A stretch of 64,000 nucleotides of DNA from a virus. How positions within the stretch are numbered: position 1 is the first letter of the stretch; every line of letters starts with the position of its first letter. Below are positions 30,577 to 47,298 of this stretch, piece after piece. Where the stretch lies: positions 1-64,000 of the IMG/VR virus record IMGVR_UViG_3300021375_000013. One strand, 5' to 3'. The notes below the pieces were generated by a model. It had not been told where the DNA came from. It ran no database searches and worked only from the letters and a program-made list of their open reading frames with translations. The position numbers and the translations under genes were made by a program.

Positions 30577-33500
30577 ATGGAATACGGAGGAAAGAACCCA
30601 AACGGAATCAATCAGGTCAGTCAAAGTTTACTTTCGATTGATGTTCAAGGTATAGAACAATTAAACATATCAACCTCATCGGTTGATATTAATACGTCTT
30701 TGAATGTTGAAAGTGGAATAACTGCATCATCATTTACTGGTTCCTTCACTGGTTCATTCAAAGGAGATGGTTCTCAATTAGAAAGTATTCCAACTACTGC
30801 ACTTACTGGTGATATTGGTAGAATAGCTGAAGGTTCAGCAACCGCATCAGTTTCAAATGGTACTTCATTCGAAGTAAATGTACCTACAAACATAACTGGA
30901 GATACAAATATAGTTGGAGATATATCAGCATCTGTATTTAGAGGTGATGGACAAGGATTATATAATATTCCAGCTGATGCATTAGGTGATATAGATAGAT
31001 TAAAATCAGGTTCAGTAGAAGCTATAATTTCACCTGATGGTGGATTGAGAGTAGAAGCTGGTGTAACTGTAAGGGATTATCTTATCGTAACTGGTAGTAG
31101 TGTATTTAAAGCAACTGCACAAGTAGGAACCGATTTAACAGTAACAGGTTCTGCTGATATACAAAACGATTTAACTATTGGTAATAATTTATCAGTAGCG
31201 GGAAGAATAACTTCTCAAGAATTATTAACAACGTTTATTTCATCATCAGTAATTTACGCATCGGGTTCGAATGTGTTTGGCGATGAAACAACCGATACAC
31301 ATCAATTTACAGGTTCAGTATTAATTAAAGATTCGGTAGTAATTCCAGTCTTTAGTTCAGCACCATCTGGTGGTGTAGTTGGCCAATTATATTATAACAC
31401 TTCAGATACTAACATTTATCGTTATACTGCTGGTGGATGGGAACCTGCAGCTGGTACTGCTGGTACATCAGGTACAAGTGGTACATCTGGTAGTGGAGGA
31501 ACATCTGGTTCTTCGGGTTCAAGTGGAACTGCTGGAACTGGAGGAACTTCAGGTTCTTCGGGTACAAGTGGTAGTGGTGGTACATCTGGTTCTGGTGGTA
31601 GTTCTGGTACTGACGGTTCTGAAGGAACCTCAGGTAGCGGAGGAACTTCTGGTTCTGGTGGTACAAGTGGTTCTGGTGGGACAAGTGGTTCTGGTGGAAC
31701 AAGTGGAACATCTGGAAGTGGTGGAACAAGCGGAAGTGGAGGAACCTCAGGTAGTGGTGGAACAAGTGGTTCTGGTGGAACAAGTGGAAGTGGAGGAAGT
31801 AGTGGTTCTGGTGGAACCTCTGGTTCAAGTGGCTCTTCTGGTTCATCAGGTAACGATGGTGTAGATGGTAATGATGGTGTTGATGGAGATGATGGTACAT
31901 CTGGTGTAGATGGTACTGATGGTACATCAGGAAGTGGTGGTACATCTGGTTCAAGTGGAACATCTGGTACATCTGGTTCTTCAGGTGAAGATGGTGCTGC
32001 TGGTGAAGGTGGTACTCCTGGTACATCAGGTTCTTCTGGTTCAAGTGGAACAAGTGGTAGTGGGGGAACATCAGGTTCATCTGGTTCATCAGGTGAAGAT
32101 GGAACATCAGGTTCATCTGGTTCATCTGGTACATCTGGAAGTAGTGGTACATCTGGTAGAGATGGTGCTGCTGGTGAAGGTGGTACTCCAGGTACATCAG
32201 GTTCTTCTGGTTCAAGTGGTACTTCTGGAAGTGGAGGAACATCTGGTTCTGGTGGAACATCTGGTTCAAGCGGTAGTTCTGGAACAAGTGGTAGTGGTGG
32301 TACATCGGGTACTGCTGGTAGTGGAGGTTCATCAGGTACAAGCGGAGCAACTGGTGCTGATGGAGAACAAGGTGTAGATGGAGATGATGGAACTTCGGGT
32401 TCATCTGGTTCAAGTGGAACAAGTGGAAGTGGAGGAACATCAGGAAGTGGAGGAACTTCAGGTTCATCTGGTACATCAGGTAGTGGAGGAACAAGTGGTT
32501 CAGCTGGAAGTAGTGGAACTTCTGGAACTGGAGGAAGTGGAGGAACATCAGGTTCTTCGGGTTCATCTGGTACTGCTGGTAGTGGTGGTACATCTGGTTC
32601 AAGTGGAAGTAGTGGAACTTCAGGTAGTGGAGGTACATCCGGCTCTGGAGGGACGAGTGGTTCTGGAGGTACAAGTGGTTCTGGAGGAACTTCGGGTTCT
32701 TCGGGTTCATCTGGTACATCTGGTAGTGGAGGTTCTTCTGGTTTATTAGCATTAACTGGTAATACTGATAATGGTGTAATCACACTTAATGGTTCAGCAC
32801 CAAATGGAACTGTTGAAAGTAATCTTACTTTTGATGGTACAACCCTAAACATAACAGGTAATCTGAATGTAACAGGTACTCAAACAATTGTGAATACCGA
32901 AACTATTCAGTTAGCAGATAATATTATTACTCTTAATTCAAACTTTACAAGTGGTACTCCTTCGGAAAATTCTGGTATTGAAGTTTTAAGAGGTTCATCA
33001 GCAACTAAACAATTTTATTGGAATGAATCATCAGATACATGGTATGCCGATTCAACATTACAATCAGCTGGAAATTTAATTGCTGGTGCTACAAATAAAA
33101 CTTCTAACACAGTAGTTCAGGCATTAGCAGACCAAAGTTATAGAGCAGGTTTTGAGGCATATGGTAATGGTCAAGGTACTGGTTATCTTTATGTAGGACA
33201 GTCTGCAACTTATGGTGGTGGTATTTCCTATAATGGGGATGGTTCACCTGCATTTGTTGGTGGAGAGAGTTCTGACCGAATTACTTTCTTTAATAGAAAT
33301 AATGGTACAAATACTGAAGTATTTAGCTATTCATATAATGGTACTCAAGTAGACTTTAATGGTACAATAACCGCAGCAAATATTAATACTGGTATAGGTA
33401 CAACTGAAGTTTATTTAATGAATCAAAACATTAGAACAACCGATGCAGTAACATTTTCTACGGTAAATACTGGACAGGGTGATAATGAGTTGTACGCAAT

Positions 33501-36500
33501 GAACCAAGCGGTTCGTACTTCGGATAATGTTACTTTTGCTAGAATCGATGTAAATGAATATCTAAGACACACTGGTGATACCAATACATACATCCGATTC
33601 AGAGGTGATGATGTACAAATGGTAGCTGGTGGTAGAAATATCATTAGAATGGATGAGGGTACAGACCCAGATAACGTACAATTAGGAGATTCAACTACTC
33701 AAACATATACTGAAGGACAATTAATTGTTGGTGATACATCTCCAACATATACTATAAACGATAATACTCCATTAGTTGGTTCAAATACTAATAATGTACT
33801 ACATATCGATGGTTCAATTCAGTTAAAAAATAATAACGATGCTATCGTATTCGGTAGAGGTACTTCTTCATTTATGAAAGATGAAGAAATTGGCTTCGGA
33901 TGGGGTGGTGGTTGGTACATGACCGATGTAACTTACCTAAGAGTAAGAAATAATAAAATTCTTTACTCAACTGGTGAGATGTGGGCTAGTAGATTTAATG
34001 ATGTGAATGATACTTCATATTATGGTGATTTCGCATCTACATCAAGACTAAATAATCTTGATGTTAATCATTTTGGTATAAACAATAGTAGTAGTGGAAC
34101 AAGAGATGGTATATCTTTATATGGAGGACATTCAACGGGTGAACCTACTTATGGTATTTTATTTACAGGTACATCTTTAGGAACACATGGTGGTGTAACT
34201 GGAGATTGGGCTACATACTTTACAATGAGTAACACTTCTAATAGAGGTTGGATATTCAGAAGAGTAGGTAGTGGTAATGCTGCTAGTATTTCAGCTGCTG
34301 GTTTAGGACAATTTAATGATAGTGTTCGTGCACCAATCTTTTATGATACAAATAATACGGGAAGATATCTAAATCCAAATGGAACATCGTCTCTTCAGAC
34401 GATTAATATGAACAATGCTAATCTTACCAATGTTAATAATATTACAATAAATGACCCTGGTGCTGGTGAAGGTATTCAATGGTTAAGTGGTAATGATTGG
34501 AGAATCTATGAATCTCCTGATAATATGAGTAATGCAGCGGGTAATTTACAATTTACTCAAGGTACTACATTTAGATTTAGAGTAGATACATCAGGTAATA
34601 GTTGGTCATCAGCATCATCCAGAGCACCAATATTCTATGATTCGGATAATAGTGGATATTATCTAAATCCTGCATCTACATCTAATTTAAATGCAATAGA
34701 TGTAAATGGTACATTGGATATTAATAGTGGTAATCAAATTAGATTATTTACATCAGCTGGAAATAATAGAGGATTTATCCAATCAACTGATACAAATGAT
34801 GCACACTTAATTATAGCAACATCTGGTGGTGAAGATATTTCATTCAGAGATGGTGGTTTAGGTGGAGATTGGAATGTAATTATGAGAGGTGATGGTAATA
34901 CTTTGTTTAGAAGTTCTACACAATCACCAATTTATTACGATAGAGATGACACAAACTATTACGCAAATCCTGCTGGAACTTCTGTATTTAATGGATTAAC
35001 TGTTGGTGGATATAATGTTCTTACTGGAGGAAATTTAGAAGATTACACTTCAAATATAGAAAATGGTTCGTTCTATAACATTACGGACTCAATGACTTCT
35101 GCTGAAGTAAGAAAACAACTTGGTAATACATCTAGTAAAATAGAAAAAATAGATGATAACACTGCTCCTGCGGAGGGTGCATTTAAAGTTACTGGTTATT
35201 TAGGATTTGATGATGCTAGATATATTAAGATTGATAAAGAATCTCAATATACTTTTGAAGTTTGGATTAAGGTAGTTGATGGTGGTGATACCAACCAAAG
35301 ATTATATATGGGTTGGACAATGTATGATAGAAATAAATCATCATATGGTAACTCTAAAAGATATTGGGGTTCTGGTGGAACTCAATTCGATACTAACACT
35401 AACACAAATGGTTGGTATAAAGTAACTGGAAAAATAAAAGGTGATGGATTCCATGCAGATGCTCAATACGCTAGACCAGTACTTCTTTTTAATTATTCAT
35501 CAAATGTGGGTGTAACTCATTATTGTGGATTAAAACTTTATAAATCAGAGCAGAGTCTTGGTAGATTAAGATTACATGGTAGTTATGGTAATAATGCTGC
35601 ATATGTTCATAACTTAACTGACCAAAGATATCCATACATCGAAGGTGGTGATAGTAATACATTAAGAATACAATCAAATAGTGGATATGTTGATTTTGGA
35701 GCAATGAATACTTCACATCTTCATATGTACACCGATAGAGGTTCATTCTACACCAATAAAATGATGTACATTCTTGGTGGTACTGAATTAAGACAGGGTG
35801 ATGTTAGGGCATCTATATTCTATGATAAAGATACTACATCAAGATATCTGAATCCAAATGGTACATCAAGAGTAAACGAAATTGAAATCACCGATACTAT
35901 AAGAATGACTAATTATGGTATTGGTATTACTGGTACATATACATCGACAAGATTACAAACTATCTTTAATATGGATGACCAGTATTCCATCGCACAAGAT
36001 GGTAATGCTACCAATAATGCATATGGTTTATATTGGTCTCACCCGAATGCAGGTTCATTAGGTGGTGCTAACAACTTAAATGACCATGGTTTATTGATTA
36101 TCAATAATGGTTCATTTAGAGCGGCAATATCAAGTAGAGCAGTATTTAGTTCTGATGTTAGAGGTACACAATTCTATGATTACAATAACACAGGATATTA
36201 TGTAAATCCAGCTGGTCAATCTCATATGAATACTCTTACCTTAGCAGGTAATAGAATTGGATTCATCAATCCAGCATTTGATGCTGAAATTAGAGTATCT
36301 GATAGTAACCCAGATGGAACTGGTGCAGAATTTACATTCTATGGTGATACTGGAGCTAGAAATGCACAACTTTCAGCTGAAGTAGGTAGTTTTAACGCAA
36401 GAGTTAGAACACCTATAATGTATGATTACAATGATAGTGGATATTATGTTGACCCTAATTCACTTACTAATCTTAATAACTTAACTGTACAAGGTACATT

Positions 36501-39500
36501 AAACTTAAATGGTACTGTTGATTTAGGTGATGATTATGAAATAGATGTTCATAAAACAATAGCTATTAACTCAACATTAAATGCAAGTGGAACTCAAGCT
36601 CGTAGATTTGAAATTGCTAGAATTGCAATGGATTATAACGATTGGAATGGTACTGGTACATTTGAAGTAGAATTACATGAACAATATTATGGTAGAGGTT
36701 CTAAAAAGACATACCAAGTATTTTGGGGATATAACAACGCTTACCAAGTAAGATTAGTTGATGCTAATATTTATGGTAACAATCATTTTAGAGTAACGAT
36801 TGGTTCCCCAGTAACAATTAGTGGTGATATTAGATATGTACCTGTTTATGTAGATGTAAGATACTATACTCAGGTAAAAGCAAGAGTTAGAACTACTAGG
36901 TCTGTAACTTATACTGATAATACACCTGCTAGAAGTTGGGCATATATAAATAAATCACCAGGTGCATCTAACATAGGAGATTTTAGTGCTGATAATATTA
37001 TTTATAAAACTGAATCAAATATTGCAGCAGATATTTTCTATGATGCAAACAATACTGGTTACTATGGTAACTTCGCCTCTACATCTTATATGAATGATGT
37101 AAGAGCTAACATTTTCTACGAAAGAGAAAACACCGCATACTACTTTGGTAGTTCACAGGGTGATGCAAGAATGCGTAACGTTAGATTTAATGAAGTTAGA
37201 ATTGAAAACGGCGTTACAATTCAATCTGTAAATGGTAATGGTAGAATTTATCTTGGTGGTAACTTCCACATAGATGCTCAAAATGGTAATGATTTATACC
37301 TCAACTATTATTCTGGTCGAAGAACAAGAACTTACTATTCATCAAATAGAGAAGCTTGGAGGTCTGATACTGACGGTATTGTTTATGCATTCAACCAACA
37401 TCGTTCACCAATCTATTACGATTATAATAATACAGGTTATTACTCTGACCCTTCAGGCGCTTCTAATTTCAATACATCTATAAGAGCAACTGAGATTTAC
37501 GCAAGAAACTGGTTCAGAAACGATAATAGTGGTGAAGGTTTATACAACCAAGCAACTGGAATGCATTGGTATTCTGATTCATCATCTCGTTGGAGATTAT
37601 ATTCTGGTAGTTCATCAACTGCACAAATTTTATTCACAACATCTGGTAACTCAGCTAGAGGATATGTTTACGCAACTAACTCAAATGAAATCGGTTTCTT
37701 AGATGCTGGTGGAAGTTGGGCAATGAGACATCAAAATGATAATGGTACTTATTTCTATACTGATAATAGTACATTAGAATTCAGAGTAGGTAGAGATACC
37801 GTAACTGGTAACTATGGTACTGTTCAAACTTCATCTACTAGAGGTGGTTGGGGTGGATACTCAATCAATGGTGGTTGGGTGTTTATGCATGACCACTCAA
37901 ACGCAGCTGGTATCTTTAACGATTACGAAAATGAGTGGGCTATCTATATGTTGAGAAACTCATATGTTGAGTTGATGTACAATGGTACTTGGGAATTGGC
38001 AACTCGGAGTGGATATGGTTTAGCTAGAGGTTCAATGAGAGCACCTCTATTCTATGATTCTAATGATACTGGATATTATATAGACCCTAATTCAACATCG
38101 AATACTGCACTTCGTATGAGAGGTGGAGCATTATTTGGACCAAACCAAAGTTGGGGTGAATACCTTGCAGTTGGTGGTAATGGTAGATGGACTAGTTCTT
38201 ACGCAAGTGTTGCTTCAACAAATGGTAACTTACACTTAGATGCAAGAAGTGGAAGAAGTATGTACCTAAACTGGTATACTGGTGGTACTGTTTATGTAAA
38301 TGGTGCAATGCAAGCAAACATTTACTACGATAGAGATAGTACTTCTTATTATGGTAACTTTGCTTCTACATCTTATATGAATGATGTAAGAGCTAATATT
38401 TTCTATGATAGAAATAATACCGCATATTACTTTGGTAGTGGTTCTGGTGATTCTAGATTCAATAGAGTAACTGGTAATTACTTCATCAATGATGGTTCAG
38501 TATCATCAGATGATAGATTTGGTATATTCTGGTCATCTGATAGAAGTGAAGCATACGCAATCTTTAGAGAATCAGGTGGATGGTCTTATAGATATCCTGA
38601 TTTAAGAATCGCATTCCATACGGGTATTAAGTTTGGAGCAAACTCATCTTACAATGGTATGCGTTTCTACAACGATTACAATATGGCAACGCAGGTGATG
38701 TCTGTTAACAACGCTACTGACCCATTGGGTGGAAACAATGTGTATGTTAACTACAACCTACAAGCTGGAGATTCGTTAAGAGCACCAATCATTTATGATT
38801 CAAATAATACTGGTTATTATTTCAATGGTGCATCTGCACACTCTACGAGATTCGAAGGTGTGAGTAATAGAACGATGGCTTATATGGGATTACCTGGTCA
38901 TACGAGAAATAGTGGTGAGTATTATAGAAGTAGACCTCGTCAAACTGGTGATACTAACTATTGGACTGGTGCTTATGGTTGGGGTAGACAGGATATGAAT
39001 GTTGTTTCAACTTGGGGTTCTGGTTTCATCGATTCTTGGAGTAATCCAGGTAACCAACCTTCAGGTACATCTCACTGGGTAGGGATGCAAGCATTCCACT
39101 ATCGTAGTTCAAACACAGGTGGTTATGGATGGCAAATGGTTGGTGGACCAATTACCAACTTGAGATTCAGAAGTTCTTGGAGTGGATGGAGAAGTTGGAG
39201 AACTATTCCTGTTCTTGATGAGAATAGTAGTAATGGTGGTTCAATGTATGCTGGTAGATATTATGATTCAAATAATACTGGTTACTACACAGACCCCGCA
39301 TCTACATCTCAAATGAGTAGTATATATGTAAACAATTGGTTTAGAGCACAAGGTTCAACAGGTCTTTACTTCCAAGATAGAGGATATGGACTTCGTTCAG
39401 TTGGTGATGAAGGTGGACAATACGGAACTGTTTCTACATATGGTAGTATAAACGGATGGGAAGGATGGTCAATGAATGGTCGTTCACTATTAATGCACAA

Positions 39501-40047
39501 CAATAGTAGTTCAACTGGTTTATATAATGATGTAAATAATGAGTGGTTATGTGAAGCTATTCACAACTCTCACTTCTACATTCACTATAATGGTAGTTGG
39601 AAAGCAAGAACTGAAAGTTGGGGTCTTAGAATTAACGATAACTTATACGCTGAGGGTAACGTAATCGCTTACTACTCAGATATGAGATTAAAGGATAAAG
39701 AGGGTGATATTGAAAACGCTCTTGAAAAAGTTGGTAAACTTAATGGTTTCTATTATAGAAACAATAAGGAAGCCAATATGATTGGATGGGGTGGAACTGA
39801 GCTACAAGTCGGTGTATCTGCACAAGATGTTAAATCAGTTCTTCCTGAAATTGTACATCCTGCTCCAAAAGCTGAGAGATTGGGATATGATTATATGACT
39901 GTTGATTACGATAGGTTAACTCCATTATTAGTTAACGCAATCAATGAACAAAATGATATAGTTAAATCACAAAAAGAAGAAATTGAATATTTAAAGTCAG
40001 AACTCTCTGAATTAAAAGAGATGATGAAAGAATTATTAAACAAATAA
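30577..40047 (+). CDS. Giant tail fibre (3,156 aa) with Gly-X-Y array, FYDxNNTGYY repeats and S74 intramolecular chaperone
   Basis: Order of parts: two SALxxD-type modules (to ~residue 290), a Gly-X-Y array (293-722), a beta-linker common in fibres (NITGNLNVTGTQTIV), then about fifteen repeats of FYDxNNTGYYxxPAxTS from ~1140 to ~2912, separated by globular beta-domains. At ~1488-1660 is a jelly-roll, carbohydrate-binding-like domain. The C-terminus is a peptidase S74/endosialidase-type chaperone: YYSDMRLKDK with the expected Ser3034-Lys3039 dyad for autocleavage, VSAQDV, YDRLTPLLVNAI, and a terminal coiled coil. Members of this family trimerise the fibre and cut themselves off, so the mature fibre should lack the last ~120 residues. 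Strong candidate for a host-recognition fibre. Confidence 0.9.
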   Translation: MEYGGKNPNGINQVSQSLLSIDVQGIEQLNISTSSVDINTSLNVESGITASSFTGSFTGSFKGDGSQLESIPTTALTGDIGRIAEGSATASVSNGTSFEVNVPTNITGDTNIVGDISASVFRGDGQGLYNIPADALGDIDRLKSGSVEAIISPDGGLRVEAGVTVRDYLIVTGSSVFKATAQVGTDLTVTGSADIQNDLTIGNNLSVAGRITSQELLTTFISSSVIYASGSNVFGDETTDTHQFTGSVLIKDSVVIPVFSSAPSGGVVGQLYYNTSDTNIYRYTAGGWEPAAGTAGTSGTSGTSGSGGTSGSSGSSGTAGTGGTSGSSGTSGSGGTSGSGGSSGTDGSEGTSGSGGTSGSGGTSGSGGTSGSGGTSGTSGSGGTSGSGGTSGSGGTSGSGGTSGSGGSSGSGGTSGSSGSSGSSGNDGVDGNDGVDGDDGTSGVDGTDGTSGSGGTSGSSGTSGTSGSSGEDGAAGEGGTPGTSGSSGSSGTSGSGGTSGSSGSSGEDGTSGSSGSSGTSGSSGTSGRDGAAGEGGTPGTSGSSGSSGTSGSGGTSGSGGTSGSSGSSGTSGSGGTSGTAGSGGSSGTSGATGADGEQGVDGDDGTSGSSGSSGTSGSGGTSGSGGTSGSSGTSGSGGTSGSAGSSGTSGTGGSGGTSGSSGSSGTAGSGGTSGSSGSSGTSGSGGTSGSGGTSGSGGTSGSGGTSGSSGSSGTSGSGGSSGLLALTGNTDNGVITLNGSAPNGTVESNLTFDGTTLNITGNLNVTGTQTIVNTETIQLADNIITLNSNFTSGTPSENSGIEVLRGSSATKQFYWNESSDTWYADSTLQSAGNLIAGATNKTSNTVVQALADQSYRAGFEAYGNGQGTGYLYVGQSATYGGGISYNGDGSPAFVGGESSDRITFFNRNNGTNTEVFSYSYNGTQVDFNGTITAANINTGIGTTEVYLMNQNIRTTDAVTFSTVNTGQGDNELYAMNQAVRTSDNVTFARIDVNEYLRHTGDTNTYIRFRGDDVQMVAGGRNIIRMDEGTDPDNVQLGDSTTQTYTEGQLIVGDTSPTYTINDNTPLVGSNTNNVLHIDGSIQLKNNNDAIVFGRGTSSFMKDEEIGFGWGGGWYMTDVTYLRVRNNKILYSTGEMWASRFNDVNDTSYYGDFASTSRLNNLDVNHFGINNSSSGTRDGISLYGGHSTGEPTYGILFTGTSLGTHGGVTGDWATYFTMSNTSNRGWIFRRVGSGNAASISAAGLGQFNDSVRAPIFYDTNNTGRYLNPNGTSSLQTINMNNANLTNVNNITINDPGAGEGIQWLSGNDWRIYESPDNMSNAAGNLQFTQGTTFRFRVDTSGNSWSSASSRAPIFYDSDNSGYYLNPASTSNLNAIDVNGTLDINSGNQIRLFTSAGNNRGFIQSTDTNDAHLIIATSGGEDISFRDGGLGGDWNVIMRGDGNTLFRSSTQSPIYYDRDDTNYYANPAGTSVFNGLTVGGYNVLTGGNLEDYTSNIENGSFYNITDSMTSAEVRKQLGNTSSKIEKIDDNTAPAEGAFKVTGYLGFDDARYIKIDKESQYTFEVWIKVVDGGDTNQRLYMGWTMYDRNKSSYGNSKRYWGSGGTQFDTNTNTNGWYKVTGKIKGDGFHADAQYARPVLLFNYSSNVGVTHYCGLKLYKSEQSLGRLRLHGSYGNNAAYVHNLTDQRYPYIEGGDSNTLRIQSNSGYVDFGAMNTSHLHMYTDRGSFYTNKMMYILGGTELRQGDVRASIFYDKDTTSRYLNPNGTSRVNEIEITDTIRMTNYGIGITGTYTSTRLQTIFNMDDQYSIAQDGNATNNAYGLYWSHPNAGSLGGANNLNDHGLLIINNGSFRAAISSRAVFSSDVRGTQFYDYNNTGYYVNPAGQSHMNTLTLAGNRIGFINPAFDAEIRVSDSNPDGTGAEFTFYGDTGARNAQLSAEVGSFNARVRTPIMYDYNDSGYYVDPNSLTNLNNLTVQGTLNLNGTVDLGDDYEIDVHKTIAINSTLNASGTQARRFEIARIAMDYNDWNGTGTFEVELHEQYYGRGSKKTYQVFWGYNNAYQVRLVDANIYGNNHFRVTIGSPVTISGDIRYVPVYVDVRYYTQVKARVRTTRSVTYTDNTPARSWAYINKSPGASNIGDFSADNIIYKTESNIAADIFYDANNTGYYGNFASTSYMNDVRANIFYERENTAYYFGSSQGDARMRNVRFNEVRIENGVTIQSVNGNGRIYLGGNFHIDAQNGNDLYLNYYSGRRTRTYYSSNREAWRSDTDGIVYAFNQHRSPIYYDYNNTGYYSDPSGASNFNTSIRATEIYARNWFRNDNSGEGLYNQATGMHWYSDSSSRWRLYSGSSSTAQILFTTSGNSARGYVYATNSNEIGFLDAGGSWAMRHQNDNGTYFYTDNSTLEFRVGRDTVTGNYGTVQTSSTRGGWGGYSINGGWVFMHDHSNAAGIFNDYENEWAIYMLRNSYVELMYNGTWELATRSGYGLARGSMRAPLFYDSNDTGYYIDPNSTSNTALRMRGGALFGPNQSWGEYLAVGGNGRWTSSYASVASTNGNLHLDARSGRSMYLNWYTGGTVYVNGAMQANIYYDRDSTSYYGNFASTSYMNDVRANIFYDRNNTAYYFGSGSGDSRFNRVTGNYFINDGSVSSDDRFGIFWSSDRSEAYAIFRESGGWSYRYPDLRIAFHTGIKFGANSSYNGMRFYNDYNMATQVMSVNNATDPLGGNNVYVNYNLQAGDSLRAPIIYDSNNTGYYFNGASAHSTRFEGVSNRTMAYMGLPGHTRNSGEYYRSRPRQTGDTNYWTGAYGWGRQDMNVVSTWGSGFIDSWSNPGNQPSGTSHWVGMQAFHYRSSNTGGYGWQMVGGPITNLRFRSSWSGWRSWRTIPVLDENSSNGGSMYAGRYYDSNNTGYYTDPASTSQMSSIYVNNWFRAQGSTGLYFQDRGYGLRSVGDEGGQYGTVSTYGSINGWEGWSMNGRSLLMHNNSSSTGLYNDVNNEWLCEAIHNSHFYIHYNGSWKARTESWGLRINDNLYAEGNVIAYYSDMRLKDKEGDIENALEKVGKLNGFYYRNNKEANMIGWGGTELQVGVSAQDVKSVLPEIVHPAPKAERLGYDYMTVDYDRLTPLLVNAINEQNDIVKSQKEEIEYLKSELSELKEMMKELLNK
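31453..32742 (+). repeat. Collagen-like Gly-X-Y array 3
   Basis: About 430 residues of GTS/GSS/GSG triplets. Unlike arrays 1 and 2 it is rich in Gly-Ser-Gly-Gly units, contains DGVDGNDGVDGDDG acidic stretches, and has only two prolines, both in a duplicated GEGGTPG motif (around 32008 and 32185). Confidence 0.9.
33990..39330 (+). repeat. FYDxNNTGYYxxPAxTS fibre repeats (~15 copies)
   Basis: Protein-level repeats such as APIFYDSDNSGYYLNPAS and APLFYDSNDTGYYIDPNS, typical of large marine phage tail fibres. Spacing is irregular because unique domains are inserted between copies. One ADIFYD...ANIFYE pair (around 37030-37145) recurs almost intact around 38315-38425. Confidence 0.85.
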
Positions 40048-43208: not shown

Positions 43209-43697
43209 ATGGCAGAAGTATTAGAATTTAACGAAATGATGTTCACCAACTTCGAACCGAAGATGAAGAACAGGTATATCATGGAGATTGATGGAATTCA
43301 ATCTTATTTGATAAAAGCCGCAGCTAGACCATCTATCAATTTCGAAACTGTGAAGTTAGACCACATTAACACTTATAGAAAACTACAAGGTAAAGGAGAG
43401 TGGCAAGATATCTCTATTACATTGTATGACCCAATCGTTCCAAGTGGAGCACAACAAGTGATGGAATGGGTAAGGTTAGGATATGAATCTTTAACTGGTA
43501 GAAAAGGATACGCAGATTTCTACAAAAAAGATATCGATTTCTATATGTTAGGACCTGTTGGTGATAAAATCGAACAATGGAAGTTAAAAGGGGCATTCAT
43601 TCAGGCAGCTAACTTTAATGATTTATCTTTTGAATCAAATGACCCAGCTGATATCGAACTAACTCTTTCATACGATTACGCTATTTTAGAATTTTAA
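43209..43697 (+). CDS. 19: Tail tube protein (gp19-like, 162 aa)
   Basis: Builds the inner tail tube. The length is almost that of T4 gp19 (163 aa). Recognisable parts are NRYIMEIDGIQSYLIKAAARPS (first strand and loop), KLDHINTYRKLQGKGEWQDI, ITLYDPIVPSGAQQVMEW, and a terminal DLSFESNDPADIELTLSYDYAI. The gene follows the sheath gene as in T4 and ends before a strong terminator, so it is expressed as a separate, probably very abundant message. Confidence 0.95.
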   Translation: MAEVLEFNEMMFTNFEPKMKNRYIMEIDGIQSYLIKAAARPSINFETVKLDHINTYRKLQGKGEWQDISITLYDPIVPSGAQQVMEWVRLGYESLTGRKGYADFYKKDIDFYMLGPVGDKIEQWKLKGAFIQAANFNDLSFESNDPADIELTLSYDYAILEF

Positions 43698-43814: not shown

Positions 43815-44588
43815 ATGAGCGAAAATAAATTTGATTTCCCAACTGAGGTAGTGGATTTACCATCAAAGGGATTACTTTATCCAGAAGGACACCCTTTAAG
43901 AAAGGGAAATATTGAGATTAAATATATGACAGCAAGAGAAGAAGATATTCTTGCATCTCAATCTCTAATCAAAAAAGGTGTAGTATTAGATAAGTTATTT
44001 GAATCAGTAGTTGTAGAACCAGGTGTAGATATTAATGATATCTTCATTGGTGATAAGAACGCAATTCTGTTAGCAACTAGAGTAATGGGATATGGTTCAG
44101 AATATAAAGTAGAAATAACTGACCCATCTACATTAGAAGAGCAAGAGGTAAGTATTGATTTATCTAAGGTAAAAACAAAAGATTTTAATGAATCATTATT
44201 AAATGGTGAAAATCTTTATAAATTTAAATTACCAAAAAGTGGGACAGAGTTGGAATTCAAACTTCTAACACATGGTGATGAAACCGAAATCACAAAAGAA
44301 AACCAAGCATTAGCTAGATTGTATAAAGGAAAAGGAGATACTACATTTGATGTAACAACTCGTTTGAAATATATGATTCAATCGGTAGATGGTAATGAAG
44401 ATAGGGGATTTATTACTAAGTGGGTATCAAACTCATTCTTGGCATTGGATACTAAAGCATTCAGAAAATATGTAAGAGAAATCAGTCCAGATATGGATTT
44501 AACATTCAACTTTGTATCAGAGTTGACGGGTGAGGAGGAGGCGCTCGATATCCCCTTTGGGGCCGGGTTTTTTTACCCTTCCGAGTGA
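43815..44588 (+). CDS. 26: gp26-like baseplate-hub assembly protein (257 aa, zero frame)
   Basis: Resembles the T4 baseplate protein family (Pfam T4_baseplate, gp26): PTEVVDLPSKGLLYPEGHPL, IEIKYMTAREEDILAS, GDKNAILLATRVMGYG, and FELLTHGDE-like FKLLTHGDET. T4 gp26 (about 208 aa) acts in baseplate hub assembly. The gene lies between tail tube and tape measure, the position where many tailed phages encode frameshifted tail-assembly chaperones. Its last ~20 codons switch to GC-rich, rarely used codons (GAG, GCG, CTC, CCC, GGG, GCC) and end in GGG TTT TTT TAC. In another frame a gp51-like sequence continues directly after the stop, which suggests recoding. Flanked by terminators on both sides. Confidence 0.85.
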   Translation: MSENKFDFPTEVVDLPSKGLLYPEGHPLRKGNIEIKYMTAREEDILASQSLIKKGVVLDKLFESVVVEPGVDINDIFIGDKNAILLATRVMGYGSEYKVEITDPSTLEEQEVSIDLSKVKTKDFNESLLNGENLYKFKLPKSGTELEFKLLTHGDETEITKENQALARLYKGKGDTTFDVTTRLKYMIQSVDGNEDRGFITKWVSNSFLALDTKAFRKYVREISPDMDLTFNFVSELTGEEEALDIPFGAGFFYPSE

Positions 44589-44781
44589 TTACTCGATTCA
44601 ATTACATAATCAAATTTGGGAACTGGTTAACTTTGGTAATGGATTTACTTGGAGAGATGTTTACTTCATGCCAATACAATGGAGAAAGTTTTACTTCAAA
44701 AAGTTATTAGACCTCAAAAAGAAAGAAGCAGACGAATACAAAAAAGCAGAACGTAAATCAAAAGTAAGGGTTAGGAAATAA
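44530..44781 (+). CDS. 51: gp51-like downstream frame, probably made by frameshift from the gp26-like gene
   Basis: The conserved-looking part starts right at the gp26-like stop: YSIQLHNQIWELVNFGNG, then WRDVYFMPIQWRKFYFKKL and a basic tail. It fits the small hub-assembly proteins that follow gp26 in T4 order (26-51). No ATG is near; the only in-frame starts are GTG 44530 and TTG 44557, deep inside the upstream gene, and an ATG at 44668 that would delete half the domain. A +1 (or -2) slip on the seven T at 44568-44574 would fuse it to the upstream frame, giving about 321 aa for +1. The stop lies in the loop of the terminator that follows. The gp51 assignment rests on context and pattern only. 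Confidence 0.65.
   Translation: MRRRRSISPLGPGFFTLPSDYSIQLHNQIWELVNFGNGFTWRDVYFMPIQWRKFYFKKLLDLKKKEADEYKKAERKSKVRVRK
44552..44578 (+). other. Putative programmed frameshift signal (T7 run in GC-rich patch)
   Basis: CCCC-TTT-GGGG can form a small hairpin at 44552-44562. It is followed by GGG, seven T (44568-44574), A and CCC, so GGG/CCC can enclose the run. Bases 44526-44568 are 29/43 G+C in an otherwise strongly AT-rich gene. Frame 0 reads GGG TTT TTT TAC; skipping one base at the T-run leads into the gp51-like frame. Confidence 0.6.
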
Positions 44782-44797
44782 TCCTTACTTTTTTTTT
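44762..44797 (+). terminator. Intrinsic terminator overlapping the gp51-like stop codon
   Basis: The AAGTAAGG / CCTTACTT stem (8 bp, extendable) with the TAA stop in the loop is followed by a run of nine T (44789-44797). It isolates the gp26/gp51 unit from the tape-measure operon. Confidence 0.85.
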
Positions 44798-44839: not shown

Positions 44840-45043
44840 ATGTCAAAAAAAGAAATAAATGAACTAAATATGGTTTCTCGATTCATAGGAGATTTTTTCG
44901 ATGGATTGCAAAAAGGTACTGCTAATAGAATAATTAAAAAAGCATCTGATAGAGGTTTACCCAAATCTTTCACAGATAAAATGGAAAAAATTAGAAAAGA
45001 AAAAGCAGAACTAGATGACCTTATAAAGAAATATTCAAAATAA
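44840..45043 (+). CDS. Unidentified small charged helical protein (67 aa)
   Basis: Family not recognised. The sequence is almost wholly helical and highly charged: NMVSRFIGDFFDGLQKGTA, then KKASDRGLPKSF and a terminal helix KMEKIRKEKAELDDLIKKY. It starts the operon behind a candidate late promoter and ends 8 nt before the tape-measure gene. A tail-assembly or tape-measure partner is plausible from position only. Confidence 0.65.
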   Translation: MSKKEINELNMVSRFIGDFFDGLQKGTANRIIKKASDRGLPKSFTDKMEKIRKEKAELDDLIKKYSK

Positions 45044-45051
45044 ACTCCTAA

Positions 45052-47298
45052 ATGGCACAAAGTAGAGCTGATTTATTAAAAGAAATAAAATCTCTTCAAT
45101 CTGAAATAAATAAGATTGAAGCTGCTGGTAGTGCCATTACTCAAGAGCAAATAAAACAAAGAAAAGACTTAAAAAAAGAAATAATATCTACTGCTAAAGA
45201 GCTTAAAAAAGTAAATGATACAAGACAACAATATTTTGCTGATGAAGAAGCTTCAATAAAATCAATATCCAGTATTTATTCTGATTTTAAAACTAAACAA
45301 ACTAATAATTTAAATTTAATAGCTAGTGGTCAAGACAAAAATGTAAAAAAATCTTTAGAAATTCTTAGTATAAATCGTGATATAGCAAATTTAAGTTCAG
45401 ATGATGAACAACAACGATTACTATTAGTGGGTAAAAGAGATGATATAATGAATTCTCTTGATAAACGAAGTAAAAGTTTAATAGCTAGTTTAAAAGAAGA
45501 AAATGCAATAGCAAATAGTTTATCAAACCTGTCTGAAGAAGAAGAAGCATCTCTTGAAAGACAAAAAGCAGCACAAGAAGCATTAAAATCTTCAATGCAA
45601 GCTATAACAGAAACTGCTGAAACATTTGTTACTAATCTAAAAAGTGCAGAAGGTATAACTGGATTACTACTAATAGGTGGTGGAAAGTTTTTTGGTAAAC
45701 TATCCGAAGTAAATAAAGAATTAGGGCAAGTTGGTGAAGGTTTAAGTGGGGCAGCTGGTAGTGCAACTGTATTAAGTTTTGCATTTGGTGATTCTGCAGA
45801 AACTCTAAAATCATTATCTGCCGAAATGGGTGGATTAGAAGATGCTACATTTGGAGCACAACTTCAAACTAACTTAATGGCTAATAATTTAGGTATTAGT
45901 GGTACTGAAGCAGCAACATTAAGTGGTTCTTTAGCTAGGTTAAATGGTGGTTCATTAGAAACTGCTGGTAATCTCGCAGCAGGTACTAGAGAATTCGCTA
46001 AAATGAATAACATACCAGTTTCTCAATTAATGGGTGATGTAGCTGGTTCAGCTGAAGAATTTGCTCTATTTGGTAAAGATGGTGGTAAAAATATATTAGA
46101 AGCAGCTGGTTATGCTGCTAAACTTGGTACTAATATGAGTACCATTAGTGGTATTGCTGATAATCTCTTAGATTTTGAAAACTCTATAAACAAAGAATTG
46201 GAGTTAGGTGCAATGCTCGGTAAAAATATCAATTTAGATAGAGCTAGGTCATTAGCTATGCAAGGGGATTTAACAGGTGCTACTGAAGAAACATTAAGAG
46301 CTTTAGGTGGAGTTGAATCTTTCAATAAAATGGATTACTTCCAAAAGAAAGCAACAGCTGATTTATTAGGAGTATCGGTTGCAGAACTTGGAAAGATGGC
46401 AGCAAACCAAGAAAAAGCACAAAATATATCTAAGTTAATGAGTGGGGATTTCTCTAACATAGGAGAATCTCTAAAAGCAGTAGTTTCTCAAGCAGGCCCA
46501 AAACTTTTAGATTGGGGTGGTAAGTTTTTAACACTATCTGCCCAAGCTGGTCAATCTTGGAGTGGTATAACCACTGTAGTGGGTGGGATTAGTAAGAAAT
46601 TCAAAGGACTTGGTGGAGCCGCAGCTGGAGGAGGACCTTTAACTAAAGCTGGTAAACCTGATATGAGATTCGGCGCTAATAAAGGTGGTGGATTAGCAAA
46701 AGCCTCTAAAGGTGGTGGAATTGGTGGAATGATGAAAGGTATGGGAGCTGGACTCAAAGGATTGGCAAAAGGTATTGGAGCATTTGCTTCCCCACAAGCC
46801 ATAGTAGGATTAGTTGCAGTAACTGGAGCAATTATTGGTATTGGATTCGCACTTAAAGTAGCAGCACCTGGTATTAAAGCATTTGGTGAAGCTATTGGTA
46901 ACATTGTAGTATCAGTAGGTACAGCCGTTGCAAAAGTATTTGGTGGATTGGGAGATTTCTTTGGAAAGATAGCACAAGTAGCAACCCCAGAACTAGCATT
47001 ATCCGTATTAGGATTAGCTGGTGGATTTGCTGCACTAACCGCATCTTTAGTAGGATTCTCAGTTGCTGGTATAGCAGCAATTCCAGCAATGATGGCTGTT
47101 TCAGCATTTGGAGCCGCAAGTTCCTTATTAGGTTTAGGTGGTGATGCTGGTGGAGGAGCTGAAGAAACCCCAGCTTGGGTAGAAGAATTAAAAACAACAT
47201 TTAGAGAAACAAAGGATGTTTATATAGATGGCGGAAAAGTTACATCAGCGATAGCAAGTAGAGTAAATAAGATAGGAAGTAATTCATACTCAATATAA
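45052..47298 (+). CDS. Tape-measure-like tail protein (748 aa)
   Basis: Probably sets tail length and sits inside the tube. Residues 1-190 are predicted long, charged helices (LLKEIKSLQSEINKIEAA and similar heptad-like runs). A region at ~200-480 has repeated Ala/Gly-rich helical pieces (GDVAGSAEEFALFGKDGG), then a Gly/Lys-rich stretch (~510-570). Hydrophobic segments follow at ~580-605, ~625-645 and ~665-700 (for example IVGLVAVTGAIIGIGFAL). Long helices followed by hydrophobic C-terminal segments are typical of tape measures. The position after gp26/gp51-like genes matches T4 gp29 (590 aa). Direct similarity to gp29 cannot be judged by eye, so no gene symbol is given. Confidence 0.75.
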   Translation: MAQSRADLLKEIKSLQSEINKIEAAGSAITQEQIKQRKDLKKEIISTAKELKKVNDTRQQYFADEEASIKSISSIYSDFKTKQTNNLNLIASGQDKNVKKSLEILSINRDIANLSSDDEQQRLLLVGKRDDIMNSLDKRSKSLIASLKEENAIANSLSNLSEEEEASLERQKAAQEALKSSMQAITETAETFVTNLKSAEGITGLLLIGGGKFFGKLSEVNKELGQVGEGLSGAAGSATVLSFAFGDSAETLKSLSAEMGGLEDATFGAQLQTNLMANNLGISGTEAATLSGSLARLNGGSLETAGNLAAGTREFAKMNNIPVSQLMGDVAGSAEEFALFGKDGGKNILEAAGYAAKLGTNMSTISGIADNLLDFENSINKELELGAMLGKNINLDRARSLAMQGDLTGATEETLRALGGVESFNKMDYFQKKATADLLGVSVAELGKMAANQEKAQNISKLMSGDFSNIGESLKAVVSQAGPKLLDWGGKFLTLSAQAGQSWSGITTVVGGISKKFKGLGGAAAGGGPLTKAGKPDMRFGANKGGGLAKASKGGGIGGMMKGMGAGLKGLAKGIGAFASPQAIVGLVAVTGAIIGIGFALKVAAPGIKAFGEAIGNIVVSVGTAVAKVFGGLGDFFGKIAQVATPELALSVLGLAGGFAALTASLVGFSVAGIAAIPAMMAVSAFGAASSLLGLGGDAGGGAEETPAWVEELKTTFRETKDVYIDGGKVTSAIASRVNKIGSNSYSI

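Follow-up and report, generated by a model that had tools for sequence, protein, structure and literature searches.

The window analyzed here is a stretch of 64,000 nucleotides, positions 1-64,000 of the 99.8-kb viral record IMGVR_UViG_3300021375_000013. The locus under study contains the following features.

43209-43697, plus strand: tail tube protein gene, upstream (phrog_4542, E 7e-29; PF06841, E 1.2e-7)
43815-44588, plus strand: 0-frame ORF of 257 aa, putative short tail assembly chaperone ('G' role), from PF12322 and phrog_150
43815-44781, plus strand: predicted +1 fusion of 321 aa, given a shift at the T-run
44525-44567, plus strand: G+C-rich patch (70%), candidate cis-acting stimulator, from a 43-nt G+C scan and GC3 excess
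44534-44541, plus strand: GGAGGAGG, a Shine-Dalgarno-like motif located 27-34 nt upstream of the slip, from GGAGG enrichment
44552-44562, plus strand: short CCCC-TTT-GGGG hairpin, not conserved as such
44567, plus strand: base 5' of the slip codon, G in the window, used in the 5'-base comparison
44568-44574, plus strand: T-run TTTTTTT that forms the slip site (frame 0: TTT TTT T), from slip-codon conservation and upstream +1 stops
44575-44781, plus strand: +1-frame extension (putative 'T' role), with a conserved domain from about 44587, from dN/dS and the extension HMM
45052-47298, plus strand: 748-aa ORF, probable tape measure, from its position

The 0-frame product is a member of the T4 gp26 family: its score against PF12322 (T4 baseplate protein) is 33.7 bits (E 3.9e-8), above the curated cut-off of 24.5, and it also matches phrog_150 (baseplate hub; E 2.2e-11). 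Scans of Pfam and PHROG revealed no sequence match of the window protein to a lambda-type chaperone. A chaperone role is suggested by the family and by the position of the gene between the major tail protein and the tape measure, which is the placement of genes of the G/GT kind. The 748-aa ORF matches no PHROG family, nor any Pfam family above its cut-off, and is probably the tape measure by its position; an annotated tape measure gene is found at the matching position in phages immuto, SP-15 and LIS04. The extension is separated from the probable tape measure by a 67-aa ORF (44840-45043) with no family match, and a small ORF is likewise present in that interval in a Microcystis phage. The sequence GTAAGG...CCTTAC, followed by nine T at 44789, straddles the end of the extension (44762-44797) and looks like an intrinsic terminator at the stop of the fusion. 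Farther upstream, a 3156-aa ORF (30577-40047) displays long Gly/Ser/Thr-rich repeats; the sole tRNA prediction in the window, a tRNA-SeC at 34258-34343 (ARAGORN), falls inside this repeat ORF and is probably a false positive.

The 0-frame ORF ends in GGG TTT TTT TAC CCT TCC GAG TGA, with the stop codon at 44586-44588. In the +1 frame, no stop codon interrupts the sequence from 44527 until 44779-44781, and the predicted junction peptide of the +1 fusion is ...AGFFTLPSDYSIQLHNQ.... An earlier note on this DNA had read the locus as a gp26-like gene that ends with a T-run and continues in the +1 frame, with a fusion of about 321 aa; the run is confirmed at 44568-44574, and the computed length is 321 aa. 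The same note had placed the locus between tail tube and tape measure as an analogue of G/GT, which is supported by a family match for the former and by position for the latter. The P-site Phe codon is most likely 44568-44570, and possibly 44571-44573. On the plus strand of the window there are two runs of seven or more T, this one and the T9 at 44789. The canonical -1 heptamer X XXY YYZ is absent from this site, where the 5' base is G and the extension lies in the +1 frame. Upstream of the extension the +1 frame contains no ATG, as had been claimed, but it does contain GTG (44530), ATA (44548) and TTG (44557).

Relatives were gathered with the 0-frame protein alone, in a search blind to the frame of the extension, and the best 80 loci of each scan were kept, three scans having at least 600 rows. 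Four of the 330 loci, which lack a 0-frame stop in the available stretch, were left out. The remaining 326 include near-copies, for example L132 and L003 from one contig, and represent 263 distinct genes; the 259 of these in +1 were reduced at 90% nucleotide identity to 182 +1 representatives, which are related to each other, so that the counts are not independent events. Among these best 80 loci per scan, the extension, searched with a profile in all three frames, is in +1 in 322 of 326. The extension HMM matched 325 of the 326 loci (best 80 per scan), 322 in +1 and 3 in -1; the profile had been seeded with +1 peptides, yet it also recovered the three -1 cases. The one locus without a match, L087 of Rhodothermus phage RM378, was judged +1 by eye and stands outside the 182 representatives. 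Contigs of bacterial and archaeal genomes, scanned separately, yielded 14 loci, of which 13 are complete at the junction (L386, incomplete, was left out; L383 and L384 belong to one contig and have the same junction), and all 13 have TTT TTT T with the extension in +1.

In public records, the +1 extension is annotated as a separate hypothetical protein in L081 (3746-3982), as an incomplete +1-frame piece in L082 (3851-3961) and L086 (3755-3874), and as an overlapping CDS in the Microcystis phage; in L088 (3703-3932) it is unannotated.

The slip site is under marked codon-level selection. Among the 182 representatives, TTT is used in 177/179 at the first slip Phe column and in 155/155 at the second, and the share of TTT at nine other conserved Phe columns is 62-84%. 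Ranked by synonymous conservation, the slip columns stand first and second of 148; the constraint on codons downstream of the slip arises in part because the stretch from slip to stop is dual coding. The sites of the 322 +1 loci (best 80 per scan) are mainly TTT TTT TGG (149), TTT TTT TAC (123) and TTT CTT TGG (35). Rarer ones are TTT CTA TGG (4), CTT TTT TGG (3) and TTT TTT CAC (2), and TTT TTT TAT, TTC TTT TAC, TTT CTT TAC, TTT CTA TTC, TTC TTT CGT and TTT TTT AGT are each found in a single locus. Every one of these sites permits +1 P-site re-pairing at one of two codons, either UUU on UUU/UUC or CUU on UUU. An assembly error in the T-run was considered and rejected: TTT TTT TAC is found in 123 of the 326 loci, the window included, and TTT TTT TGG in 150. 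The extension itself evolves as protein, with a dN/dS of 0.093 in the +1 frame versus 1.28 and 1.93 in the other frames over 1,798 pairs of extension segments that are 70-97% identical.

The point at which ribosomes would enter the +1 frame is narrowly bracketed. A +1-frame stop lies no more than 12 nt upstream of the slip in 53 of the 182 representatives, and the 0-frame stop follows 5-8 codons past the slip start; entry is therefore at or next to the TTT site. In 41 of these 53 there is no ATG, GTG or TTG before the extension, and 26 have no near-cognate start either (ATG, GTG, TTG, CTG, ATT, ATC or ATA). Across the 182 representatives the +1 frame has no conserved start codon. Accordingly, the suggestion that the second frame is startless in relatives holds for many of them, but not for all, since the open +1 stretch contains ATG, GTG or TTG in 121/182 and some start-like codon in 156/182; an ATG is present in 69 of 263 distinct +1 loci. 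Because start-like codons are found in most representatives, the case against initiation rests on the bracketed relatives together with the codon evidence.

These data bear on two explanations that dispense with a fusion. A separate small protein might begin within the overlap at a GTG, TTG or near-cognate codon aided by the GGAGG, and the in-frame GTG, ATA and TTG of the window, the start-like codons of 156/182 representatives, the strong enrichment of GGAGG about 31 nt before the slip and the overlapping CDS annotated in the Microcystis phage would all suit it. Initiation nevertheless fails as a general explanation because 26 of the 182 representatives have no start at all, a +1 stop being no more than 12 nt from the slip in all 26, and it leaves the strict use of TTT and the avoidance of a 5' T (see below) unaccounted for; we regard it as very improbable. 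A still slighter chance is given to the making of two proteins by coupled termination and reinitiation. One relative, L085, looks so arranged, with a TAATG; in contrast, in the 26 startless representatives the stretch that begins at the last +1-frame stop and extends some 6 nt beyond the 0-frame stop contains no start codon, and selection on the slip codons and on the 5' base is not accounted for.

The base that precedes the slip is also constrained. It is T in 0 of the 182 representatives, where amino-acid-matched codon use predicts 90.8 +- 6.2, in 0 of the 322 +1 loci (best 80 per scan) and in 0 of the 13 genome-contig loci. Where the preceding codon encodes Asn it is AAC in 29/29 (background 30%), and where it encodes Asp it is GAC in 22/22 (background 20%). 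As a control, T before other TTT codons of the same genes occurs 276 times versus 371.8 expected, which is reduced but far from absent. Comparison among the relatives thus indicates that a 5' T is avoided at the slip, where it would create the -1 heptamer T TTT TTY. A positive E-site effect may act as well, because G and C are strongly favoured before the slip and A is also reduced.

The composition of the sites further discriminates between ways of reaching the same frame. The earlier note had left the slip as +1 or -2, and the seven T of the window do permit a slip of -2, as in phage Mu, which yields the same frame. By contrast, TTT CTT TGG and TTT CTA TGG (25 representatives) offer no cognate -2 re-pairing, as do TTT CTT TAC and TTT CTA TTC (one representative each; 27 in all), while UUU to UUC is cognate in +1. 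The +1 alternative is therefore strongly supported, and a -2 slip has only a very slim chance of being correct. Slippage of RNA polymerase on the run of seven T, with a mixed mRNA pool as its outcome, is barely credible: relatives with TTTCTTTGG or TTTCTATGG have no long homopolymer and show the same frame relation, and the 5'-base rule suits tRNA re-pairing.

The region upstream of the slip has an unusual composition. The 43 nt before the T-run are 70% G+C, versus 34% across the window, and of 63,957 windows of 43 nt only four, which overlap and all lie at the 5' side of the slip, reach 67%. The G+C-rich stretch reported earlier is thus unique in the 64 kb, with a value of 70% in place of the 67% given. 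An amino-acid-matched excess of GC3 is found across the 182 representatives at most codons from -15 to -1, except -4, with z values of 14.6-15.9 at -11 to -9, 17.7 at -3 and 25 at -1. GGAGG occurs within -45..-15 in 95 of the 182 representatives, against an expectation of 0.011 per 31-nt window. A distance of about 31 nt is beyond the usual spacings of frameshift stimulators. The motif was rejected as the Shine-Dalgarno sequence of a start site, as it lies 27-34 nt before the slip with no conserved +1 start codon. What recurs upstream of the slip in relatives is the preference for G/C-ending codons, GGAGG in about half of them and a base other than T before the slip.

The CCCC-TTT-GGGG hairpin described earlier is present at 44552-44562, but that exact hairpin is not conserved. 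RNAalifold found no common structure in the 182 aligned sequences (0.0 kcal/mol), and a 4-bp hairpin (-3.4) in the 46 sequences with TTTTTTTAC; pair statistics on the aligned relatives gave no clean helix and no covariation. Local folding has a median z of -1.1 for -26..0 versus 0.18 in control windows, and of -1.07 for the window ending at +6 versus -0.6 to +0.4 away from the slip, these values being relative to mononucleotide shuffles only, so that a U-run beside purines may exaggerate the excess. The propensity to fold is elevated in 28-nt windows whose 3' end falls between 0 and +18. We infer a likeness of this upstream pattern to the one outlined in an excerpt from Huang et al.

A structural model of the 0-frame protein computed with AlphaFold2 from 41 sequences has a pLDDT of 88.4. 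Its named matches in BFVD are mostly baseplate-hub (gp26-type) proteins, that of SP-15 among them. The HK97 tail assembly chaperone (2ob9) is the top VIA row, with a weak score (Z 4.9 over 90 residues, 4.5 Å), and the fold search of the PDB with this model gave nothing significant (Foldseek E 3.2 for the HK97 chaperone). A likeness of the model to the HK97 chaperone fold is thus suggestive only. A profile search of the PDB with alignment A1 revealed no credible match.

Comparison with phage T4 reveals how the two isoforms may be encoded elsewhere. Both gp26 (208 aa) and gp51 (249 aa) of T4 match the full length of the PF12322 profile, and gp51, but not gp26, continues to position 280 of phrog_150 and matches phrog_634. 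Residues 209-245 of gp51 align with the cyanophage extension with an E value of 1.6e-4 and a probability of 51%. T4 thus possesses two paralogues, the short gp26 and the long gp51, in which an extension follows a complete gp26-type domain. Calling the second frame 'gp51-like', as the earlier note did, is consequently loose: the +1 frame of the window corresponds to the extension of gp51, and gp51 is domain plus extension. An hhalign comparison of alignment A3 with the single T4 gp26 sequence was not significant (E 0.17), and the link to T4 therefore rests on PF12322/phrog_150 and on alignment A5. In Campylobacter phage CP81 (L112, L119, L120) more than one phrog_150 match is found in one genome, which suggests a short and long gene pair as in T4.

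A mirror image of the +1 site is found in homologues of the cyanophage type, which were gathered from a six-phage alignment as the best 80 of at least 592 relatives. In these best 80 loci the extension is in the -1 frame in 80/80, and T TTT TTC is found at the same Phe-Phe in 80/80. Within the same best 80 of at least 592, the base before the slip is T in 80/80 (expected 48.1 +- 4.2), and the second slip Phe is TTC in 80/80, where TTC makes up 25% of Phe in those genes. Sixty-nine of these loci have a GGAG-like motif at -15, and 40 have one at -16 (again the best 80 of at least 592), which is the spacing of -1 stimulators such as dnaX. A -1-frame ATG lies within 36 nt in 78/80 of this set, while L423, L434 and Syn9 have none; reinitiation is possible at the loci with a nearby ATG. 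By eye, T TTT TTC or T TTT TTT with a -1 extension is also seen in S-PM2, P-SSM2, Syn9, HTVC008M, Cr30, phiM12, KVP40, phiW-14, PA5oct and Atu_ph07. By profile-profile comparison the domains of the +1 and -1 groups match with an E value of 3.7e-6 in an alignment that reaches the Phe-Phe, and their extensions with an E value of 6e-5 and a probability of only 65%. On these alignments we take the two groups to be homologous. At E 0.1, phrog_634 did not match the +1 ORF of the window, and a search of 17 phage records gave no match to it in six, each of which is of the +1 type.

A change of direction is seen within the +1 clade. Loci L205 and L209 have TTC TTC TGG with the extension in -1 and the canonical -1 heptamer A AAT TTC just upstream, and no ATG was seen in their -1 stretch. 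In the tree they are nested in the +1 clade, within a supported set of 29 rows (98/95); long branches (T4, CP81, RM378, phiW-14, L085) leave the deep forks unsure. L205 and L209 have thus switched from +1 to -1. The third -1 case, L085, has the TAATG overlap.

Taken together, these comparisons establish, at the level of sequence, the +1 frame of the extension, selection on the slip codons, selection on the extension as protein, and entry at or next to the TTT. Programmed +1 recoding very probably joins the two frames into the predicted fusion, with a probability of roughly 0.9. Most ribosomes would terminate at 44588, which gives the short form of 257 aa. In a minority, the Phe-tRNA that occupies the P site on TTT would slip +1 onto TTT (TTC in some relatives), and these ribosomes would reach 44781 and yield a 321-aa protein with a C-terminal extension. 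The fusion is presumably made, in some ratio to the short form, and the upstream elements presumably stimulate the slip. If the proteins act like lambda G and GT, the domain common to both forms would coat the tape measure, and the less abundant extended form would recruit tail-tube subunits.

A broader proposal, to which we give an even chance, is that recoding at the conserved Phe-Phe junction of the T4-type tail chaperone can go in either direction, as set by the 5' base, the codons and the upstream element. A 5' T with TTT TTC would lead to -1, and a 5' base other than T with TTT-T/TTT-Y and an upstream GGAGG or hairpin near the E site would lead to +1. Flips of direction would have come with matching changes on both sides, as in L205 and L209, and in T4 a gene pair would have replaced recoding. 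If true, these phages constitute a natural series in which to examine how the direction of bacterial frameshifting depends on the E/P-site boundary and on an upstream duplex.

Recoding at this locus has precedents. The earlier note knew of no report and proposed that its reading recast gp26/gp51; according to papers that cite it, Vladimirov et al. 2022 had already identified T4-like tail assembly chaperones (TACs), and that claim does not hold. Citing that work, passages of the PRFect paper (PMC10885494) describe a short gene and a long fusion gene in some T4-like phages, and passages on phage Adele (PMC12846349) treat polyT -1 signals as known in T4-like TAC genes. In the open-licence PMC literature, judged largely without full texts, no report of +1 recoding in a gp26-type gene was found. 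The equation of gp26/gp51 with G/GT is thus already known, and what looks new, subject to Vladimirov et al. 2022, is the +1 direction in a large lineage and the mirrored sites. Tail chaperone frameshifts are widespread, +1 cases are few in the papers that we met, and the part of Atkins et al. 2016 (PMC5009743) consulted presents G-T frameshifting as conserved 'except T4'. Hundreds of environmental phage loci carry the +1 signal, and the annotated records examined split or drop the extension; downstream ORFs labelled 'hypothetical' or 'baseplate hub assembly catalyst' are likely chaperone extensions. A natural experiment on frameshift direction is provided by these homologous genes, whose sites are mirrored and whose directions are opposite.

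Among known systems, T4 gp26/gp51 shares the PF12322 domain, with the extension on gp51 and not on gp26, but encodes the two forms as paralogous genes, in contrast to the one gene with a +1 frameshift found here. The cyanophage gp26 and 'baseplate hub assembly catalyst' (phrog_634) have a homologous domain, an extension and a Phe-Phe junction, and differ in the -1 frame, a heptamer with 5' T and TTC, and a GGAG-like motif at -15/-16. The chaperone of the haloarchaeal myovirus HSTV-2, described as 'very likely' +1 in that part of Atkins et al. 2016 (PMC5009743), is alike in direction and in its tail chaperone locus, by description and not by sequence. The forward P-site slip onto UUU/UUC resembles the UUU_C slippage of influenza A PA-X, known as +1 from an extract of PMC3498833, and the CUU_U of RF2, the latter also through the CTT TTT of three relatives. 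Unlike PA-X and RF2, the A site of the window holds neither a stop nor a rare Arg codon, and the upstream elements differ; L084, with TTC TTT CGT, is the one relative with such an Arg codon. As in lambda G/GT, a single gene located after the tail tube gene and before the probable tape measure gene is predicted to give a short and a C-terminally extended isoform by frameshifting close to where the short frame ends; the two frames overlap where the first one ends, the second can lack a start of its own, and the slippery site is conserved. Lambda shifts by -1, whereas the gene described here, a member of PF12322 (T4 gp26), is predicted to shift by +1 on UUU-U/UUU-Y.
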